In this document: one piece after another, positions 2,059-7,226 of the stretch | How positions within the stretch are numbered: the first letter of the stretch is position 1 | Layout of the letters: each line of letters starts with the position of its first letter | IMG/VR virus record: IMGVR_UViG_3300033153_006485 | Location: 1 to 23,335 of that record | DNA length: 23,335 bases | Strand: one strand, 5' to 3' | Source of the DNA: a virus | Translations under genes and position numbers: made by a program | Notes under the pieces: generated by a model | Told to the model about the DNA's origin: nothing | Database searches by the model: none | Seen by the model: the letters and a program-made list of their open reading frames with translations, nothing else

Positions 2059-2766
2059 TCACCTCCGGTCAAGTTTGTACAACTTCTGCTCAGCAATATC
2101 CAGAATCATCTCGTGCGAATTAAGGTCACCACCGATGAACCGTTTAACTGCATGAGCGATAAACCCACCGGCGATTTGTGGACAGTAAACGATACTTCGA
2201 GCCGAGCATGGAAGCTCCAACTCTTCGCCTTCAAGTGACTTGCAGTACTCGTTTACCGCAAGTTGGTCGAGCAGGCTAATGGTGAAAAGGTGCAAGATTT
2301 CTAAACCCATGCGAGCGTCAATCAGGATGCTTGGATTTGTGTTGTTTTGGGCCATCCGGCGGTAGACTTGCCAAACTTGCCTTCGAGCAGCGAGAGAATC
2401 AACACAAGCAAGTGTGACGTCTGCAGCGGGGAGCCGCGTATCTGCAGTGACCGGCCATTCGTATGCGTAAACGTTCCTAGGCGTTACACCTGCATCATCT
2501 ATTATATAGTGCTTCAACGCATCAACTTTAGATTCATCAATGTTCTGCGTGGAAAACAATTGACATCCGACGTTTTCTGCATCGACCGTATCAGGGTCAT
2601 ACAGGTGAAAAGAACCTACGCCAAGTTTCGCAAGGGCGTACGTTGCAAAGGAGCCTATCGCGCCACAGCCGATGACGCTGACAGTCGTCGCTTGAAGTGC
2701 GTCAAATGAAACAGCCGTTTCCTGCCTTGCCCGAAATGTTCTTTGCTCTTCTTCCGTTAACATCAT
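2059..2766 (-). CDS. ThiF/E1-like adenylyltransferase of the ubiquitin-like cassette
   Basis: The 235-aa protein has the ThiF/MoeB/E1 adenylation core: FRARQ near residue 11 (like the conserved RYxRQ opening), VSVIGCGAIGS (29-39, GxGxxG nucleotide loop), LYDPDTVDAENVG (55-67) with ATP-contacting aspartates, K80 and CVDS at 121-124. A downstream PCSARSIVYCPQIAGG segment (186-201) matches the end of the fold, and C187 is a candidate thioester cysteine. The usual arginine of the N-x-x-R-Q motif is replaced by cysteine (NVGCQ), and the MoeB/ThiF zinc cysteines are absent. It probably adenylates the Ubl C-terminus and passes it to the E2-like protein. The ATGATG start overlaps the JAB stop (ATGA) with an AAGGAGAGG site. 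At 235 aa it is a minimal E1 without extra domains. Confidence 0.87.
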   Translation of the reverse strand: MMLTEEEQRTFRARQETAVSFDALQATTVSVIGCGAIGSFATYALAKLGVGSFHLYDPDTVDAENVGCQLFSTQNIDESKVDALKHYIIDDAGVTPRNVYAYEWPVTADTRLPAADVTLACVDSLAARRQVWQVYRRMAQNNTNPSILIDARMGLEILHLFTISLLDQLAVNEYCKSLEGEELELPCSARSIVYCPQIAGGFIAHAVKRFIGGDLNSHEMILDIAEQKLYKLDRR

Positions 2767-3980
2767 GTCCTCTCCTTAAGAAGCTCGGCTGGAAGCCGCT
2801 TGGTTAATGCAGCAAACACCTTAGCAACCTTCTCTTGGAATGGTCTTGTCACAATTCGGTCACTTGGCCACGTAATAGCATCGCCCACTCGAATACAAAT
2901 CTGCGCAAACTTACAGCTCTTGAGGTCACAACCAGCGTACGTCGTTCGCTTCTTGCCAGTCTTGTCAACTGTTGTAATCTGCCTGTTGCACGCAAATTTT
3001 CGCAAGGGCGTCTTGCGAAATGCCTGCAAGAGAAGTTCGGCGTTCTTCGGTGCTGCAGCTTGGCGTCTTTGGAATCGTCGGGCCAAGTCCGTCACGATTT
3101 CGTTGCGTTGCCGCGTTGAATGCACGCCTAAAACCCAGCGATAGTCGAACTTCTGCCAAGTCGGATTGCAGATTGGAGTAAACGGACAAGTCTTGCTACA
3201 GCCGGCTCCATCAGAGCATTCAAGCTCTGCAATGGGGGTGGCTTTAAATTCAATGAGCAGGTCAACCTCGGAGGGCGTAAGTTCACCATCCGGCGCACTG
3301 TGTGCAGGTTTCGCTGGCTGTTTTGCTCCATAATGCGTGCCAAAGAGCGTTGTTTTTGGCTGCGCCAGTCGCTCGACTGTAGGGCTTTCGTGTGTGCTCG
3401 ACGTATCAACAATGCTGCCCACCACGAGTGGTGCTTGACGGGTTGCAGCTTCCTTCCAGGTTTCAACGGCCTTCTCTCGTATTTGTGCATTGTTCAAAGC
3501 CACGTGCACCGGCAAGCCTGTTATTTCTACGCCTGTTGGAAACGAAACCTTTGCCACGAATGCCTTACGTCCGAGGAGAACTGAAACTACGTACGGATAC
3601 CCTGAGTCGAGCATTCGTCGAATCTGCGTGTTATCCTCGTTACTCCATGGACTTGGACCAAGCGTTGCGACCATTGGATGACTGTGTATCCAGCAGTTAT
3701 ACGCCTTGCGCACTTCAGGCTTAAGCTGCGCAGCGGCATCAGCAAACTCTTCCTCTTTAAGCTCAACATGAGCACCAGACACATCCTGTGCTGGAAACCA
3801 CAGGCTGTGAATGTAAAGCGTTCCATCTGCCGCTTCGACTTGGCCCAAAGCCATAAACTCGTCAGGCTTCGCTGCGTCGAAAACGCCAATAAGCTGATTC
3901 GCAGCATCACTTGAAAGCGCAACGTGGACAATGACACCCGTTCCACCTGACCCCTTTGGCAGCTCAATGAGGTTGTCCAT
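2763..3980 (-). CDS. JAB/JAMM metalloprotease with duplicated Cys-rich C-terminal domain
   Basis: Residues 1-170 of 405 form a JAB (Mov34/MPN) domain with an intact zinc site: E41 in DEFMALG, H99 and H101 in IHSHP, and S113-x2-D116. Such proteins hydrolyse isopeptide bonds or process Ubl C-termini, so this is the likely deconjugase of the cassette. Residues about 170-245 are a low-complexity linker. The C-terminal part has two four-cysteine sets (C255, C261, C265, C271 and C331, C351, C356, C362) sharing G-C-x3/4-C-x5-C, presumably zinc or Fe-S sites; their role is unknown. The start at 3980 follows GAAAGGA. An in-frame ATG at 4028 would overlap the E2-like gene. It lies 22 nt after E2 and overlaps E1. 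Confidence 0.87.
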   Translation of the reverse strand: MDNLIELPKGSGGTGVIVHVALSSDAANQLIGVFDAAKPDEFMALGQVEAADGTLYIHSLWFPAQDVSGAHVELKEEEFADAAAQLKPEVRKAYNCWIHSHPMVATLGPSPWSNEDNTQIRRMLDSGYPYVVSVLLGRKAFVAKVSFPTGVEITGLPVHVALNNAQIREKAVETWKEAATRQAPLVVGSIVDTSSTHESPTVERLAQPKTTLFGTHYGAKQPAKPAHSAPDGELTPSEVDLLIEFKATPIAELECSDGAGCSKTCPFTPICNPTWQKFDYRWVLGVHSTRQRNEIVTDLARRFQRRQAAAPKNAELLLQAFRKTPLRKFACNRQITTVDKTGKKRTTYAGCDLKSCKFAQICIRVGDAITWPSDRIVTRPFQEKVAKVFAALTKRLPAELLKERT

Positions 3981-4002: not shown

Positions 4003-5562
4003 CTAACCTGTCGCCTTTGCCTCGTCAATCAGCTTTCTGCGCCGTGCCTCCCAAGCAATCGTAGCAGAGCGGGCCGCTTGATAAGCAGCGTCATCCTGCT
4101 GTCCTCGACGCAGTTCCCTTTCTTCACGAAGTGCCCTAATTGGTGGATAGTGCCGGGTGAGCGCCTCTCCAAACCCACAACCGACTCCTGTAAGAGCTGC
4201 CGGGCAGGCTTTTACAGCTTCGCCCCAAGCTGCCAGGTCGTCCGTTGTACTTGTGCAGACACAGGCAGCACAGTTAGTAGGATGCACGTATGCTCGTATG
4301 GGGCAAACGTCATAACAGATGTCCGTCTGTCTGTCTTTGCACCGTGAACATGCCTGTTTGCTGAAACTTAGTGGAGTCTTCGGACAATATGCTGCACACA
4401 CCATCGTATGGGCATATTCGCAGTCTGTGCATGGGTCCAACGTAGCAAGTACCGCCCGAAAATCGTCGAACATCGGGTCAGTTGATGCCGCCGCAGCGTC
4501 AATCCAGCTTCGGAGTGTGTGGTATGGATTTGCTGCGCCGAATGTCCCCAAGATGTGGCGCACGACTTGTAACATCATACGGACGTTTCGTGCCTTAGCC
4601 GCCTGAGTGAACTGCCTGGCACCAGCTCCACCAAGGCAGACATGACCACTGTTGTCAACGTGTGGATGGAGCCCATTATGTGAGACCAACGGGTCTGTGC
4701 AGGGGGCCACGTTCATGTATGGACGTTCCACAAACGAATCATATCCGTCAATGTGGACAGTCCATTGACCAAAGTTCAGGTCGATGTTCAACTCATTATC
4801 GTGCAAGATAAGGTCGTTGGTTATCGCCGTGATGCGTGTTGGACTTGTTGCTCCAACGAAGACATACCCTGCAACCGGTTCCTTGTTCGTAAGTAGGGCT
4901 CTCAGTCCTTCAGGGTCTTTTGCCCCTTGGAGTAACCTCGGGATCGTGGTAGCCTGACCTACACCTAGGCAAAACCGTACGTGCTTCTTCAAACAACGCC
5001 TTGCAGCCAAGACCGTTGCATGATAGAGCTTTGGGTCTTCTATGTCCCAGGAAGCCGTAGGCCAAAATATCCAAGGTGCGTTAGCTGCTCCCCGTGCGTG
5101 CCAGCTCCACCGATTTGGCTCAGATCCCCACTGCGTTGTGTCCCTCAACTGCCTAGAAAAGCCGGATGGGGGAACACCTCTCATGTAGCGGATATGTGTA
5201 TTAGGTGGATCGTCAACCGGCGCAAAGTACCCATCAACTGAGTGTACGCTGTATTCCCCGATGTGGATGATGATCGTAGGTGCGTCAGGGTCAAGCCCCG
5301 TTAGAGGCTGCCTTGAATTTCCACAGACACGGAGTGTGAGACTCGAAAGATTAGATCGTGCAAAAACATCCTCTCCGAACTTCCTAATGCGCTCCAATCG
5401 AGCTGCTGAGAGTTGTGTGCTCTGGGGTCCATCAGGCTCAGTCGTGACGTTTAGCTCTGTCACGACCTGCAACCCTGAAGTCGCTGAACTGGGCGCTTCA
5501 ACCCAAAGCTCTGGTGGGTTGAAGGTCGATGCTGGATAGAGCCGCAGCTCGTAGATGCTCAT
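4003..5562 (-). CDS. E2-like (UBC-fold) conjugating protein with C-terminal Cys-rich domain
   Basis: This 519-aa protein contains H299-P300-H301-V302 then G306-x-V-C309-L, which reproduces the eukaryotic E2 signature HPN[IV]-x3-G-x-V-C-L with the same spacing; C309 is the predicted thioester cysteine. It is preceded by a strand-like WTVHIDGY and ERPYMNVAP, and followed by a helix (residues 318-340), consistent with a UBC fold at about 230-350. Residues 378-393 and 405-420 are two copies of C-x2-C-x7-C-x3-C-P, followed by CAACVC (431-436) and further cysteines, so a metal-binding domain that might serve as a built-in E3-like or scaffold part. The N-terminal 230 residues are unrecognised, and the last 45 are highly charged and helical. 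The ATG at 5562 has AAGAGGAGG upstream. Confidence 0.82.
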   Translation of the reverse strand: MSIYELRLYPASTFNPPELWVEAPSSATSGLQVVTELNVTTEPDGPQSTQLSAARLERIRKFGEDVFARSNLSSLTLRVCGNSRQPLTGLDPDAPTIIIHIGEYSVHSVDGYFAPVDDPPNTHIRYMRGVPPSGFSRQLRDTTQWGSEPNRWSWHARGAANAPWIFWPTASWDIEDPKLYHATVLAARRCLKKHVRFCLGVGQATTIPRLLQGAKDPEGLRALLTNKEPVAGYVFVGATSPTRITAITNDLILHDNELNIDLNFGQWTVHIDGYDSFVERPYMNVAPCTDPLVSHNGLHPHVDNSGHVCLGGAGARQFTQAAKARNVRMMLQVVRHILGTFGAANPYHTLRSWIDAAAASTDPMFDDFRAVLATLDPCTDCEYAHTMVCAAYCPKTPLSFSKQACSRCKDRQTDICYDVCPIRAYVHPTNCAACVCTSTTDDLAAWGEAVKACPAALTGVGCGFGEALTRHYPPIRALREERELRRGQQDDAAYQAARSATIAWEARRRKLIDEAKATG

Positions 5563-5585: not shown

Positions 5586-5640
5586 GCATGTGGGCCGAGG
5601 TCACGTTAGTAGGACGAACGAAACGGCTCGGCCCACAAGC
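5586..5640 (-). promoter_or_regulatory. Long hairpin between Ubl and E2-like genes
   Basis: The arms 5586-5599 and 5627-5640 pair over 14 positions with a single T-T mismatch (10 uninterrupted pairs of GTGGGCCGAG with CTCGGCCCAC), leaving a 27-nt loop. It fills most of the 87-nt Ubl-E2 gap and has no T-run, so it is more likely a 3'-end stabiliser or processing/attenuation site than an intrinsic terminator. Such an element would favour more Ubl mRNA than enzyme mRNA, which suits a modifier needed in excess; that part is inference. Confidence 0.6.
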
Positions 5641-5649
5641 ATCACCGGA

Positions 5650-5859
5650 TCAAGCCCCAGCCATCTTCGGGATGACCAAGATTTGATCGCCATTGCGAAC
5701 AACTGTCTCGTCTGAGCAGCCGTTCGCGTTCAGGCGAACCTGATGCCCAGCATCGACAGCAATGTTCGCCCCAGCCAGCGCATCACCGACGTCTGCACCT
5801 TCAGGAAGGTGCACCGTCACGCTGGCACCACCCAGCTTCTCAACTGTCACGTCCGGCAT
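5650..5859 (-). CDS. Ubiquitin-like beta-grasp modifier (ThiS/MoaD-like, 69 aa)
   Basis: The ATG at 5859 follows an ideal AGGAGGAAGAAAG site, so the mature gene is 69 codons rather than the longer in-frame extension. The protein has the ThiS/MoaD/Ub pattern: two opening strands (VTVEKLG, ASVTVHLPEG), a helix region (VGDALAGA), strands VRLNANG and the hallmark NGDQILVIPK ending at the C-terminus. It ends MAGA, so the terminal pair is Gly-Ala instead of Gly-Gly. Next to E1-, E2- and JAB-like genes it is the presumed conjugated modifier. No tail follows the GA, so no C-terminal trimming seems needed unless A69 itself is removed. A purely sulfur-carrier role is unlikely given the E2. Confidence 0.8.
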   Translation of the reverse strand: MPDVTVEKLGGASVTVHLPEGADVGDALAGANIAVDAGHQVRLNANGCSDETVVRNGDQILVIPKMAGA

Positions 5860-5998
5860 CTTTCTTCCTCCTAACGTGACCTTGAGAGTTTGCCCCGGCG
5901 TCCTTACCGAGGTACTTCCCACAGTCGACGACCTTTCGGCCTTTAACTATCAGTGTTCCACCGTTTCGCACTGCAAAAGACGCCAAACTTGCCATCAT
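5840..5998 (-). CDS. Hypothetical protein (52 aa), first gene of the leftward operon
   Basis: A double ATG at 5998/5995 follows AGAAGGAGG with optimal spacing, and the stop at 5840 overlaps the Ubl start by 20 nt, so the Ubl ribosome site lies inside this frame. The peptide has a strand-like opening (FAVRNGGTLIVKGRKVVDC) and a basic, disordered tail (HVRRKKDAGRDS). No family is recognised. It may be a true small protein of the Ubl system or chiefly serve to couple translation into the Ubl gene. The leader upstream carries two copies of an 18-nt repeat. Confidence 0.55.
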   Translation of the reverse strand: MMASLASFAVRNGGTLIVKGRKVVDCGKYLGKDAGANSQGHVRRKKDAGRDS

Positions 5999-6058
5999 CT
6001 TGCCTCCTTCTAGGGTTCACAAAACTCTAATCGGGCGGGTTTCGCCGCGCCGCCGGCA

Positions 6059-6103
6059 GCAGAAGTCGGCCCGGTTTGCGGCGCGCAGAAGTCGGCCCGG
6101 TTT
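6059..6103 (-). repeat. Two tandem copies of an 18-nt leader motif
   Basis: Read on the minus strand, AAACCGGGCCGACTTCTG occurs twice 26 nt apart (6060-6077 and 6086-6103), between the predicted leftward promoter and the first ATG of the operon. Single-mismatch copies occur in the same sense orientation ahead of the two rightward early genes (6582-6599 and 7118-7135). The position in leaders suggests a phage-specific transcription or translation control site. Confidence 0.75.
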
Positions 6104-6121
6104 CGCTGAACATTGCTCCAA

Positions 6122-6150
6122 ACTATAAATGAATTGACAATTTTTGTCAC
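6122..6150 (-). promoter_or_regulatory. Predicted sigma70-type promoter of the leftward operon
   Basis: On the minus strand GTGACA (6150-6145, one change from TTGACA) is separated by exactly 17 nt from TATAGT (6127-6122, one change from TATAAT). The start of transcription would be near 6115, about 115 nt ahead of the first ATG, and both leader repeats would be transcribed. It overlaps TTTTGCTGAACGATT (6153-6167), a motif repeated elsewhere, so a regulator could control it. Confidence 0.6.
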
Positions 6151-6187
6151 TTTTTGCTGAACGATTTTGAACGTTACGGTACACATT

Positions 6188-6503
6188 GGGGGTAAATAGG
6201 GTCGGTGTAAGTCCTTTCGACCGAACGCTTTACGTCTTGTGTGACAGAGCGTGACAGAGTTTTTTGTCGTCGTAAGTTGTTTGTCTCTCTTATCTTATGA
6301 TAAATAAAGCCTATATATATAAAAACCCGGGAGGACATCTTAGAAAACCATATGTCTCTAGGGGTTTGGGGGTAATCTGGTCTTTTTCCACCTTAAGTCG
6401 TTGCCCTCATTGGACTTCTGTGTAACCAAATCTCTGTCACGCTCTGTCACAGAGGGCGTAAGTCGTTTGTCTCATTGAGTTTGCATTTAGAGCATTTACC
6501 CCC
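6188..6503. other. Candidate replication origin / regulatory hub with iteron-like repeats
   Basis: This non-coding stretch has a near-symmetric layout. GTGACAGAGCGTGACAGAG (6241-6259) is exactly inverted at 6432-6450, and each arm is two copies of a 9-mer separated by one base. GGGGGTAAAT at 6188 and GGGGGTAAT at 6368 face ATTTACCCCC at 6494-6503. GTAAGTC/T-type repeats begin near 6206, 6270, 6393 and 6459, two of them followed by GTTTGTCTC. In the centre lies an AT-rich run (about 6286-6325) with TATATATATAAAAA. Iterons around an AT-rich core between divergent gene sets are typical of phage origins, but no initiator gene is visible to confirm it. I see no convincing gene from 6000 to 6640. 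Confidence 0.5.
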
Positions 6504-6531
6504 GAGCGTACCCCATTTTGCTGAACGCTGA

Positions 6532-6552
6532 ACAAACTATAACCTAGTTTGT
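6532..6552. promoter_or_regulatory. Operator-like inverted repeat with possible -10
   Basis: ACAAACT (6532-6538) and AGTTTGT (6546-6552) are perfect 7-bp inverted arms around ATAACCT. The sequence TATAAC (6538-6543) inside could be the -10 element of a rightward promoter for the early cluster, though no good -35 is seen. A TTTTGCTGAACG copy (6516-6527) sits directly upstream. Confidence 0.35.
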
Positions 6553-6581
6553 CTAAAGTCTACAAAGTCCACAACTGGCGC

Positions 6582-6599
6582 AAAGCGGGCCGACTTCTG
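6582..6599 (+). repeat. Third copy of the 18-nt leader motif
   Basis: AAAGCGGGCCGACTTCTG differs from the leftward leader copies at one position and lies about 45 nt ahead of the first rightward early frame, in sense orientation to it. Confidence 0.7.
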
Positions 6600-6644
6600 A
6601 TTTCGGTTTGGCTGGGGTTTCAAGTGTCTTTAGGAGAAAGTGCG

Positions 6645-6753
6645 ATGACGGTATGCAGAAGAACTCTGGGAAGCGTACGATGCTGGTGTGGCCGAAGGTA
6701 TCGAGTCTGTTTTCAGTGACGCTGTTCTAGGTCCAGAGGAGGAACATGATTGA
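6645..6753 (+). pseudogene. Small early gene apparently frameshifted near its start
   Basis: A good AGGAGAAAG site precedes ATG 6645, but that frame gives an unlikely cysteine/arginine-rich 24-mer. One base over, from about 6652, the frame reads AEELWEAYDAGVAEGIESVF and ends PEEEHD with its TGA overlapping the next ATG (6746), exactly the gene-to-gene overlap seen elsewhere in this phage. That frame has no start codon: TGA lies just upstream at 6646-6648. The simplest reading is a single-base indel within the first few codons, either a real mutation or a sequence error; a programmed shift is less likely. The intended product would be an acidic helical protein of roughly 35 aa. Confidence 0.45.
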
Positions 6754-6820
6754 CAAACGTGCGTTATGGGCTTTCAAGCTGTCTCGACTTTACTCGAAAG
6801 GGCGGTTCAATGCTACTTGA
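6746..6820 (+). CDS. Very small basic protein or leader peptide (24 aa)
   Basis: ATG 6746 follows CCAGAGGAGGAAC, one of the best ribosome sites in the window. The 24-codon frame encodes a basic peptide (MIDKRALWAFKLSRLYSKGR...) and its stop at 6818-6820 overlaps the ATG of the next frame at 6810. It either makes a microprotein or couples translation into the following gene. A TTG start at 6750 in the frame of the next gene could share the same ribosome site, which is the main alternative. Confidence 0.45.
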   Translation: MIDKRALWAFKLSRLYSKGRFNAT

Positions 6821-7028
6821 GCTTGTTGATGCTGGGGTGGAGCGGAAACTAACTGTTGCTCGAACGCTCCTTGTGACGGAACTCAAGCGTGAAGCACAGC
6901 TTGCAGAAGCACAAGCGGAAGAGATCGTCGTCATGGACTTTGAAGACGCGATATTTCGTGAAGTGCTGTTAGAGCGATGTCGAACGTACAATGCTGCATT
7001 GGAAGTCATCAAGAGGCGGTTGGGGTAA
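6810..7028 (+). CDS. Hypothetical helical protein (72 aa)
   Basis: From the ATG at 6810 the product is MLLELVDAGVERKL... and is almost entirely helical and charged (RTLLVTELKREAQLAEAQAEEIVV and RCRTYNAALEVIKRRLG). The start overlaps the stop of the 24-aa frame, and an alternative TTG start at 6750 would add 20 residues and use the strong AGGAGG site. No family is recognised. It lies in the early rightward cluster between the intergenic hub and the helix-turn-helix gene, the usual place for small regulators and host-takeover proteins. Confidence 0.6.
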   Translation: MLLELVDAGVERKLTVARTLLVTELKREAQLAEAQAEEIVVMDFEDAIFREVLLERCRTYNAALEVIKRRLG

Positions 7029-7061
7029 GCTAGTTGGAAGCGCCCATTTGCATTGACAACA

Positions 7062-7090
7062 TTGACATTGACGTAACATGCTGCTATGAC
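7062..7090 (+). promoter_or_regulatory. Predicted promoter for the helix-turn-helix gene
   Basis: A perfect TTGACA (7062-7067) is followed after 17 nt by TATGAC (7085-7090, four of six consensus bases). It lies in a CATTGACA tandem (7051-7067). Transcription would start near 7097, upstream of the leader-motif copy at 7118 and about 130 nt ahead of the ATG at 7227. Confidence 0.5.
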
Positions 7091-7117
7091 AAGGATTAGC
7101 TTAGATGGTGAAAAGCC

Positions 7118-7135
7118 AAACTGGGCCGACTTCTG
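7118..7135 (+). repeat. Fourth copy of the 18-nt leader motif
   Basis: AAACTGGGCCGACTTCTG differs by one base from the leftward leader copies. It lies just downstream of the predicted promoter at 7062-7090 and is in sense orientation to the helix-turn-helix gene. Confidence 0.7.
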
Positions 7136-7226
7136 GTGAGGATAAACTCCTCTTTGAAAGGAACCTAGATGAAGTGAAACTTGTCGGCGGTTTCGTGTGC
7201 CAAAACTCAAGAATGGAGCAAAGAAA

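Follow-up and report, generated by a model that had tools for sequence, protein, structure and literature searches.

The locus examined here raises the question of whether a bacterial virus can encode a complete and reversible cascade for the conjugation of a ubiquitin-like protein (Ubl), including an E2 enzyme with a eukaryote-like active site. In bacteria, ubiquitin-like tagging is known mainly from host defence or mobile-element systems, and we found no description of a phage-borne Ubl-conjugation cascade in the open-access literature, subscription papers and preprints lying outside this search. The window, that is, the whole stretch of DNA analyzed, is an IMG/VR record of 23,335 bases (IMGVR_UViG_3300033153_006485) whose plus strand carries genes for the terminase large subunit, the portal and the major capsid protein, which points to a tailed-phage origin. 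Opposite in direction to these head and packaging genes, an operon of four minus-strand genes encodes, in this order, a Ubl (69 aa, 5650..5859), an E2 (519 aa, 4003..5562), a JAB/JAMM isopeptidase of the Rpn11 type (405 aa, 2763..3980), and a ThiF-type E1 adenylating enzyme (235 aa, 2059..2766). Each is preceded by a Shine-Dalgarno sequence, and the genes are closely spaced or overlapping, the E1 ATG overlapping the JAMM stop codon. A 52-aa basic open reading frame (ORF) on the same strand (5840..5998), with a strong Shine-Dalgarno (GGAGGCAAG-ATG), overlaps the Ubl start and is possibly the first gene of the operon, judging from its sequence. A divergent control region (6000-7140, recognized from sequence) separates the leftward cassette from the rightward genes; its part at 6000..6650 contains an inverted repeat with 40-nt arms (6224-6263 / 6428-6467) as well as repeated CAGAAGTCGGCCCGGTTT sites, several of which occur across the region in either orientation, and a promoter-like match on the minus strand (6150-6122), the latter two being consensus matches only. 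A DNA methyltransferase-like gene (961-1518; phrog_3816, 2.4e-24) lies left of the cassette, likewise on the minus strand.

The reading frame of the E2 gene is open up to a GTG at 5604, and we preferred the ATG at 5562, which has GAGGAGGTGCAAC in front and gives the 519-aa protein and the numbering used below. An initial reading of the DNA had proposed a eukaryotic type of catalytic site, and the 10-residue His-Cys spacing is indeed exact in the segment H299-P-H-V-D-N-S-G306-H-V-C309, followed by L310 (4636..4668, minus strand; delimited on a 28-sequence alignment), whereas the asparagine of the HPN motif is replaced by His301, in the window E2 as in most relatives. Searches with the single sequence (Pfam, PHROGs, NCBIfam, PADLOC, PDB phmmer, related loci, phage tblastn) yielded nothing credible, so relatives were fetched with a DNA pattern of the active site. 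H299, P300, C309, and G311 are invariant in the resulting alignment (the window and 27 relatives) and G265, H301, and G306 nearly so, a conservation that is partly circular given the way in which the relatives were retrieved. Structure prediction bore out the expectation of a ubiquitin-conjugating (UBC) fold around residues 230-350: the AlphaFold model of residues 205-373 (4444..4950, minus strand) has UBC topology with pLDDT values mostly of about 75-91. All 50 PDB chains listed by VIA-align 2 for this core are E2s (Z 8.2-9.1, 123-132 residues aligned, rmsd 3.3-4.2); Foldseek also returned E2s as best matches, but only at 4e-3, and gave no credible match among viral models. A profile of the family matched eukaryotic E2s in 60 of the 60 PDB sequences listed (best E 6e-4), with HPx...C in register and C309 aligned to the catalytic cysteine, and the segment L..YNP.SPY that follows the active site is reminiscent of L..PNP.SPL in E2s. 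A chance origin of the motif was rejected on the fold, profile, and operon evidence. The predicted role of the protein as a Ubl carrier is thus well supported by its UBC fold, the alignment of C309 and its Ubl, JAMM, and E1 operon partners. Like the E2s of eukaryotes (Ubc13, UBE2S, UBE2D), the window protein combines a UBC fold with an HPx...GxxCL site of 10-residue spacing, but it differs from them by HPH in place of HPN, by a lineage-specific N-terminus, and by a fused Cys module. The N-terminal region (residues 1-204; 4951..5562, minus strand) is as unrecognized as first described: some 200 residues are without a match in any library searched, and model confidence is low there. The substrate-recruiting part suggested by the initial reading is hypothetical; the corresponding regions of relatives are either different or absent.

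The Cys module (residues 378-462; 4177..4431, minus strand) was also described correctly from the start, with exactly two exact copies of C-x2-C-x7-C-x3-C-P at 378-394 and 405-421 and the additional cysteines C431, C434, C436, C453, and C462. CxxC...CxxxCP arrangements recall ferredoxins. The loci then gathered contain 12,660 stop-to-stop ORFs, of which a single one, the window E2 itself, has the exact motif, and the repeat was not found in relatives. Pfam gave no match to the E2, Cys module included, and AlphaFold confidence on the module is low (pLDDT mostly below 50); zinc, iron-sulfur, and RING-like types would all be possible, and the model cannot tell them apart. Cys-rich tails nevertheless follow the UBC domain directly in many relatives, with up to 14 CxxC pairs and at least 6 cysteines in 14 of 40 cases, and an IBR-domain model weakly matches one member of the E2 set. 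A C-x(8-22)-C-x4-C-x5-C pattern ends the E2 candidates of several loci and is found again in the C-terminal half of the window JAMM protein, which contains two Cys clusters (C255-x5-C261-x3-C265-P-x4-C271, 3168..3218; C331-x19-C351-x4-C356-x5-C362, 2895..2990; both on the minus strand and read from sequence), the second of them with this pattern. These recurring patterns in E2 tails and in the window JAMM protein argue for a metal-binding accessory module that is recurrent in such cassettes. The window module is probably metal-binding and may play a ligase-like role.

The three partner proteins were assigned to families with varying ease. E1 is the only cassette protein confidently recognized by a library (PF00899, 65.3 bits for a cut-off of 28.1), the window E2 and JAB having zero matches to Pfam, NCBIfam, or PADLOC models; E1 profiles further matched ThiF (6.4e-19) and UBA5 (1.9e-18). 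Its ATP-binding GxGxxG (G33xG35xxG38) is invariant in the E1 alignment, and a putative catalytic cysteine, Cys187, lies in an LPCSAR segment (LPC(S/T)xR) and is conserved in five of the six aligned E1s. We take this segment to resemble the catalytic CTLK motif of UBA1. The E1 tree has long branches and supports only the grouping of the window E1 with that of locus L002, itself a long-branch join. The JAMM family profile matched Rpn11 from Caldiarchaeum and yeast (1.5e-11 and about 1e-9) and JAMM1 (8e-9), while a PHROG search with the window JAB gave a chance-level match only. The metal and catalytic residues E...HxH...SxxD are kept (E41, H99, H101, S113, D116), as seen from the alignment and the sequence of the motif HSHPMVATLGPSPWSNED (3633..3686, minus strand); the distance from HxH to S is 11 residues in the window versus 7 in the aligned relatives, and this 4-residue insertion may mean that the protease is altered. 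The Ubl is a single beta-grasp domain in the AlphaFold model (beta-beta-alpha-beta-beta, pLDDT 91.9), for which Foldseek ranked SAMP1, Caldiarchaeum ubiquitin, the small subunit of molybdopterin synthase, ISG15, and SUMO highest. Its family profile matched SAMP2 at 2.5e-9, and PF02597 (ThiS) gave an E-value of 4e-4, just below the cut-off. Its sequence ends in ...PKMAGA, that is, in Gly68-Ala69 and not Gly-Gly; several relatives do have Gly-Gly, and Gly-Gly or Gly-Ala ends are common in Ubls near E2 genes, often with short tails, 0 to about 15 residues following the glycine. In the solved JAMM-Ubl complexes 5lda and 6fnn, the Ubl profile matches one half and the JAB profile the other.

The cassette recurs in other viral genomes. 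Searching a viral collection with the DNA pattern HPHxxxxGx[V/I/M]CxG retrieved 9 stretches, in each of which the motif is part of a long ORF, most often beside JAB and E1 genes; a loosened pattern retrieved 39. The His-Cys spacing of these relatives is dictated by the pattern itself; in independent relatives, it is 10 (L033:5177, L040:963, L047, L050, L055) or, in L053, 9. A search seeded with three E1 sequences (the window and two pattern-found contigs, an alignment of six being too diverse) detected 64 viral loci, with a JAMM gene adjoining E1 in 59; given the origin of its seeds, its independence from the E2 pattern is limited to the scanning step. After pooling both searches and removing copies, 72 E1-JAMM pairs were obtained; a motif-bearing E2 candidate (H-P- or N-P-H...C-type) is adjacent in 40 of these, both an E2 and a Ubl are present in 25, and the remaining pairs have divergent proteins, partly read by eye, in the E2 position. 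HPH...C is found in most of the relative E2s that could be read well. UQ_con matched 7 of 33 E2s and E2 candidates (best 1.8e-12), and the Pfam Prok-E2 models, which cover the known bacterial E2 families, matched none of the 33 at an E-value of 0.1. Relatives of the cassette thus occur in dozens of phage genomes, their genes mostly unnamed or called thiamine-synthesis genes, with the proviso that Terminase_6C was detected in 12 of 40 viral records and that most relatives lack independent proof of being tailed phages. In other phages, the cassette has replication genes for neighbors at a distance of no more than a few kb (DnaB-type helicase, AAA_24 ATPase, SNF2 helicase, primase). In 23 viral contigs (within L072-L106), a reverse transcriptase gene is located about 1-2 kb downstream of E1 (RVT_1 6.4e-20 for L072), mostly together with a JAMM protein of the GHSHVNM type. 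Tandem E2-like genes precede JAMM and E1 in L033 and L035 (two genes) and in L040 (three), several of them with very Cys-rich tails.

Most of the proteins that the pattern matched in bacterial genomes had neither an E1 nor a JAMM gene near them in the stretch examined. Only one, on a Zixibacteria metagenome-assembled genome (MAG) contig (L110), belongs to an E2-JAMM-E1 run, which a Ubl accompanies, so the cassette may also reside in prophages or bacterial genomes; in another (L124), an E2-like ORF stands beside an E1 fragment. Lachnospiraceae MAGs (L108, L109, L115, L118, L120, L123, L126-L128) have in common a protein of 423-437 aa with HPHIYNQGLVC(V/I)G, again with no E1 or JAMM match in the stretch examined. 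A related cluster was found in Bacteroides phage PhiCrAssBcn18 (L041), Flavobacterium phage Fpv3 (L042), and bajarodcaudo virus 1 (L043), which are culturable or complete phage genomes. There, the gene run is Ubl-like/unknown/JAMM/E1, a "thiamine biosynthesis" annotation is present in two of the three, and genes for a primase, UDG, or ribonucleotide reductase are close by. The crAss-like (Kehishuvirus) and Fpv3 clusters have a Ubl-like N-terminus, a protein with a His/Cys segment, JAMM, and E1 in the same order as the window, but their E2 candidate has no HPH...C and no confident Pfam match. The family phrog_15310, whose function is unassigned, matches two of the scanned members, probably these two. 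Neither ubiquitin nor ThiF nor JAB is named in the main text of a survey of crAss-like phages (Yutin 2021, PMC7886860).

With this operon, the folds or families of its products, their conserved catalytic residues, and their recurrence in other phages in hand, we assign a probability of about 0.82 to the reading that the phage encodes a reversible Ubl-conjugation cascade, E2 included, from one operon. In the scheme that we infer, the JAMM enzyme would, where needed, trim the tail of the Ubl and expose its glycine (the window Ubl ending in Gly68-Ala69); E1 would adenylate this glycine and accept the Ubl on Cys187; thioester transfer would then bring the Ubl to C309 in the canonical UBC site of E2, with HPH instead of HPN, from which it would pass to a lysine of a target. 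In place of a separate E3, the Cys module fused to the E2, with the metal that it probably binds, would serve to dock the Ubl, E1, or targets. Cleavage of the resulting isopeptide bond between Ubl and target would again fall to the JAMM enzyme. The Gly-Ala end of the Ubl, the HPH variant, the insertion in the JAMM motif, and the modest Foldseek value of the E2 model count against this reading. E1-to-E2 transfer is not assured either, because the E1 is short and lacks the separate inactive adenylation and Cys domains of the BilD protein discussed below; moreover, since the window is a 23-kb contig, partner genes located elsewhere could be missing from it.

Among the closest known systems is the bacterial ISG15-like defence system BilABCD, in which BilA has two Ubl domains, BilB a CEHH motif (Cys, then Glu at +6, His at +8, and His at +13), and BilD an inactive and an active adenylation domain together with a Cys domain (PMC11354881). 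Both systems comprise a Ubl, a UBC-type E2, a JAMM deconjugase, and a ThiF-type E1. Their gene order agrees as well. By contrast, the window Ubl has one domain (69 aa) and not two; the HPH of its E2 precedes the cysteine, with no Glu or His at the CEHH spacings after C309; its E1 is a single 235-aa module with one ThiF match; its E2 has the Cys module and, at the N-terminus, a further region of 200 aa; and the cassette is phage-carried. The window cassette has the BilABCD composition, but three Bil features (two-domain Ubl, CEHH, and multi-domain E1) are absent from it. This resemblance makes it conceivable, but in our opinion unlikely, that the same cascade serves the phage or prophage as an anti-phage weapon, tagging proteins of competing phages in superinfection exclusion as BilABCD does on tail proteins. 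The component set equals that of BilABCD (PMC11354881), PADLOC E1-E2 defence models match the window E1 (best 7.4e-19), and PADLOC JAB models weakly match relatives; these matches, however, reflect common ThiF and JAB folds, the window E2, JAB, and Ubl have no PADLOC match at all, and the cassette is near replication genes in many relatives.

Operon type 6d of Iyer et al. (2006) groups a Ubl, a JAB, an E1, an E2, and a helical protein, and its E2 lacks the conserved histidine of classical E2s (PMC1779556). The window is similar to it in having separate genes for the Ubl, E2, JAB, and E1, and different in that its E2 has HPH. We take the 6d operon to correspond to PRTRC cassettes. The PRTRC_ThiF model scored 36.2 bits against the window E1, far from its cut-off of 144.75, and the E2 and JAB had no NCBIfam match at all, so that a PRTRC identity was rejected. 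In profile searches with the Ubl and JAMM families, the archaeal pairs SAMP2-JAMM1 and Caldiarchaeum ubiquitin-Rpn11 rank first or near the top among solved relatives. To our knowledge, SAMP systems need no E2; the window cassette differs from these archaeal pairs in having one. Given the kinship of the Ubl with ThiS and of the E1 with ThiF, and given that JAMM enzymes are also found with sulfur carriers (PMC1779556), the "thiamine biosynthesis" labels of crAss-like genomes could be taken literally, the system then being a sulfur carrier of the ThiS/MoaD/CysO type for cofactor synthesis or tRNA thiolation. This is improbable: sulfur transfer includes no step for an E2 that has a UBC active site, and among the recurrent neighbors whose families were checked there is no sulfurtransferase and no thiazole or molybdopterin gene.

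The Gly-Ala end, HPH, and the 4-residue insertion in the JAMM loop would also suit a decaying or pseudo-enzymatic cassette, which would once have carried out conjugation and now be retained solely for binding, but we judge this very improbable, as the four frames are open and have ribosome sites, E2, E1, and JAB retain their catalytic residues, and HPH is the usual form among the relatives found. Hardly credible, finally, is a role in virion assembly like that of lambda TAPI/TAPK: the pairing of Ubl and JAB peptidase genes in tailed phages has been described (PMC1779556), but lambda-type clusters consist of a Ubl and a JAB with NlpC/P60 beside tail genes, whereas the cassette of the window adds E1 and E2 and is oriented against the head and packaging genes, outside a tail cluster.

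As to what a phage conjugation cascade would be used for, the replication-type neighbors and the reverse transcriptase speak more for an early role linked to replication than for one in virion assembly, which is the weakest step of the argument. Our best guess, to which we grant slightly less than an even chance, is that it would modify host or replication proteins early in infection. A full phage cascade, if confirmed, would mean that bacterial viruses tag proteins reversibly to their own benefit, with a system that recurs in many viral genomes, goes unnoticed in culturable phages behind the label "thiamine biosynthesis", and has an E2 whose eukaryote-like active site is fused to a probable metal module. 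Its relatives in isolated crAss-like and Flavobacterium phages render the question testable. For the broader reading, we see the odds as evenly balanced: the window would then represent a widespread and hitherto undescribed class of phage Ubl cascades, in which an E2 and an E3-like metal module form one chain, and with which tailed phages, crAss-like gut phages included, may tag host or viral proteins during infection.
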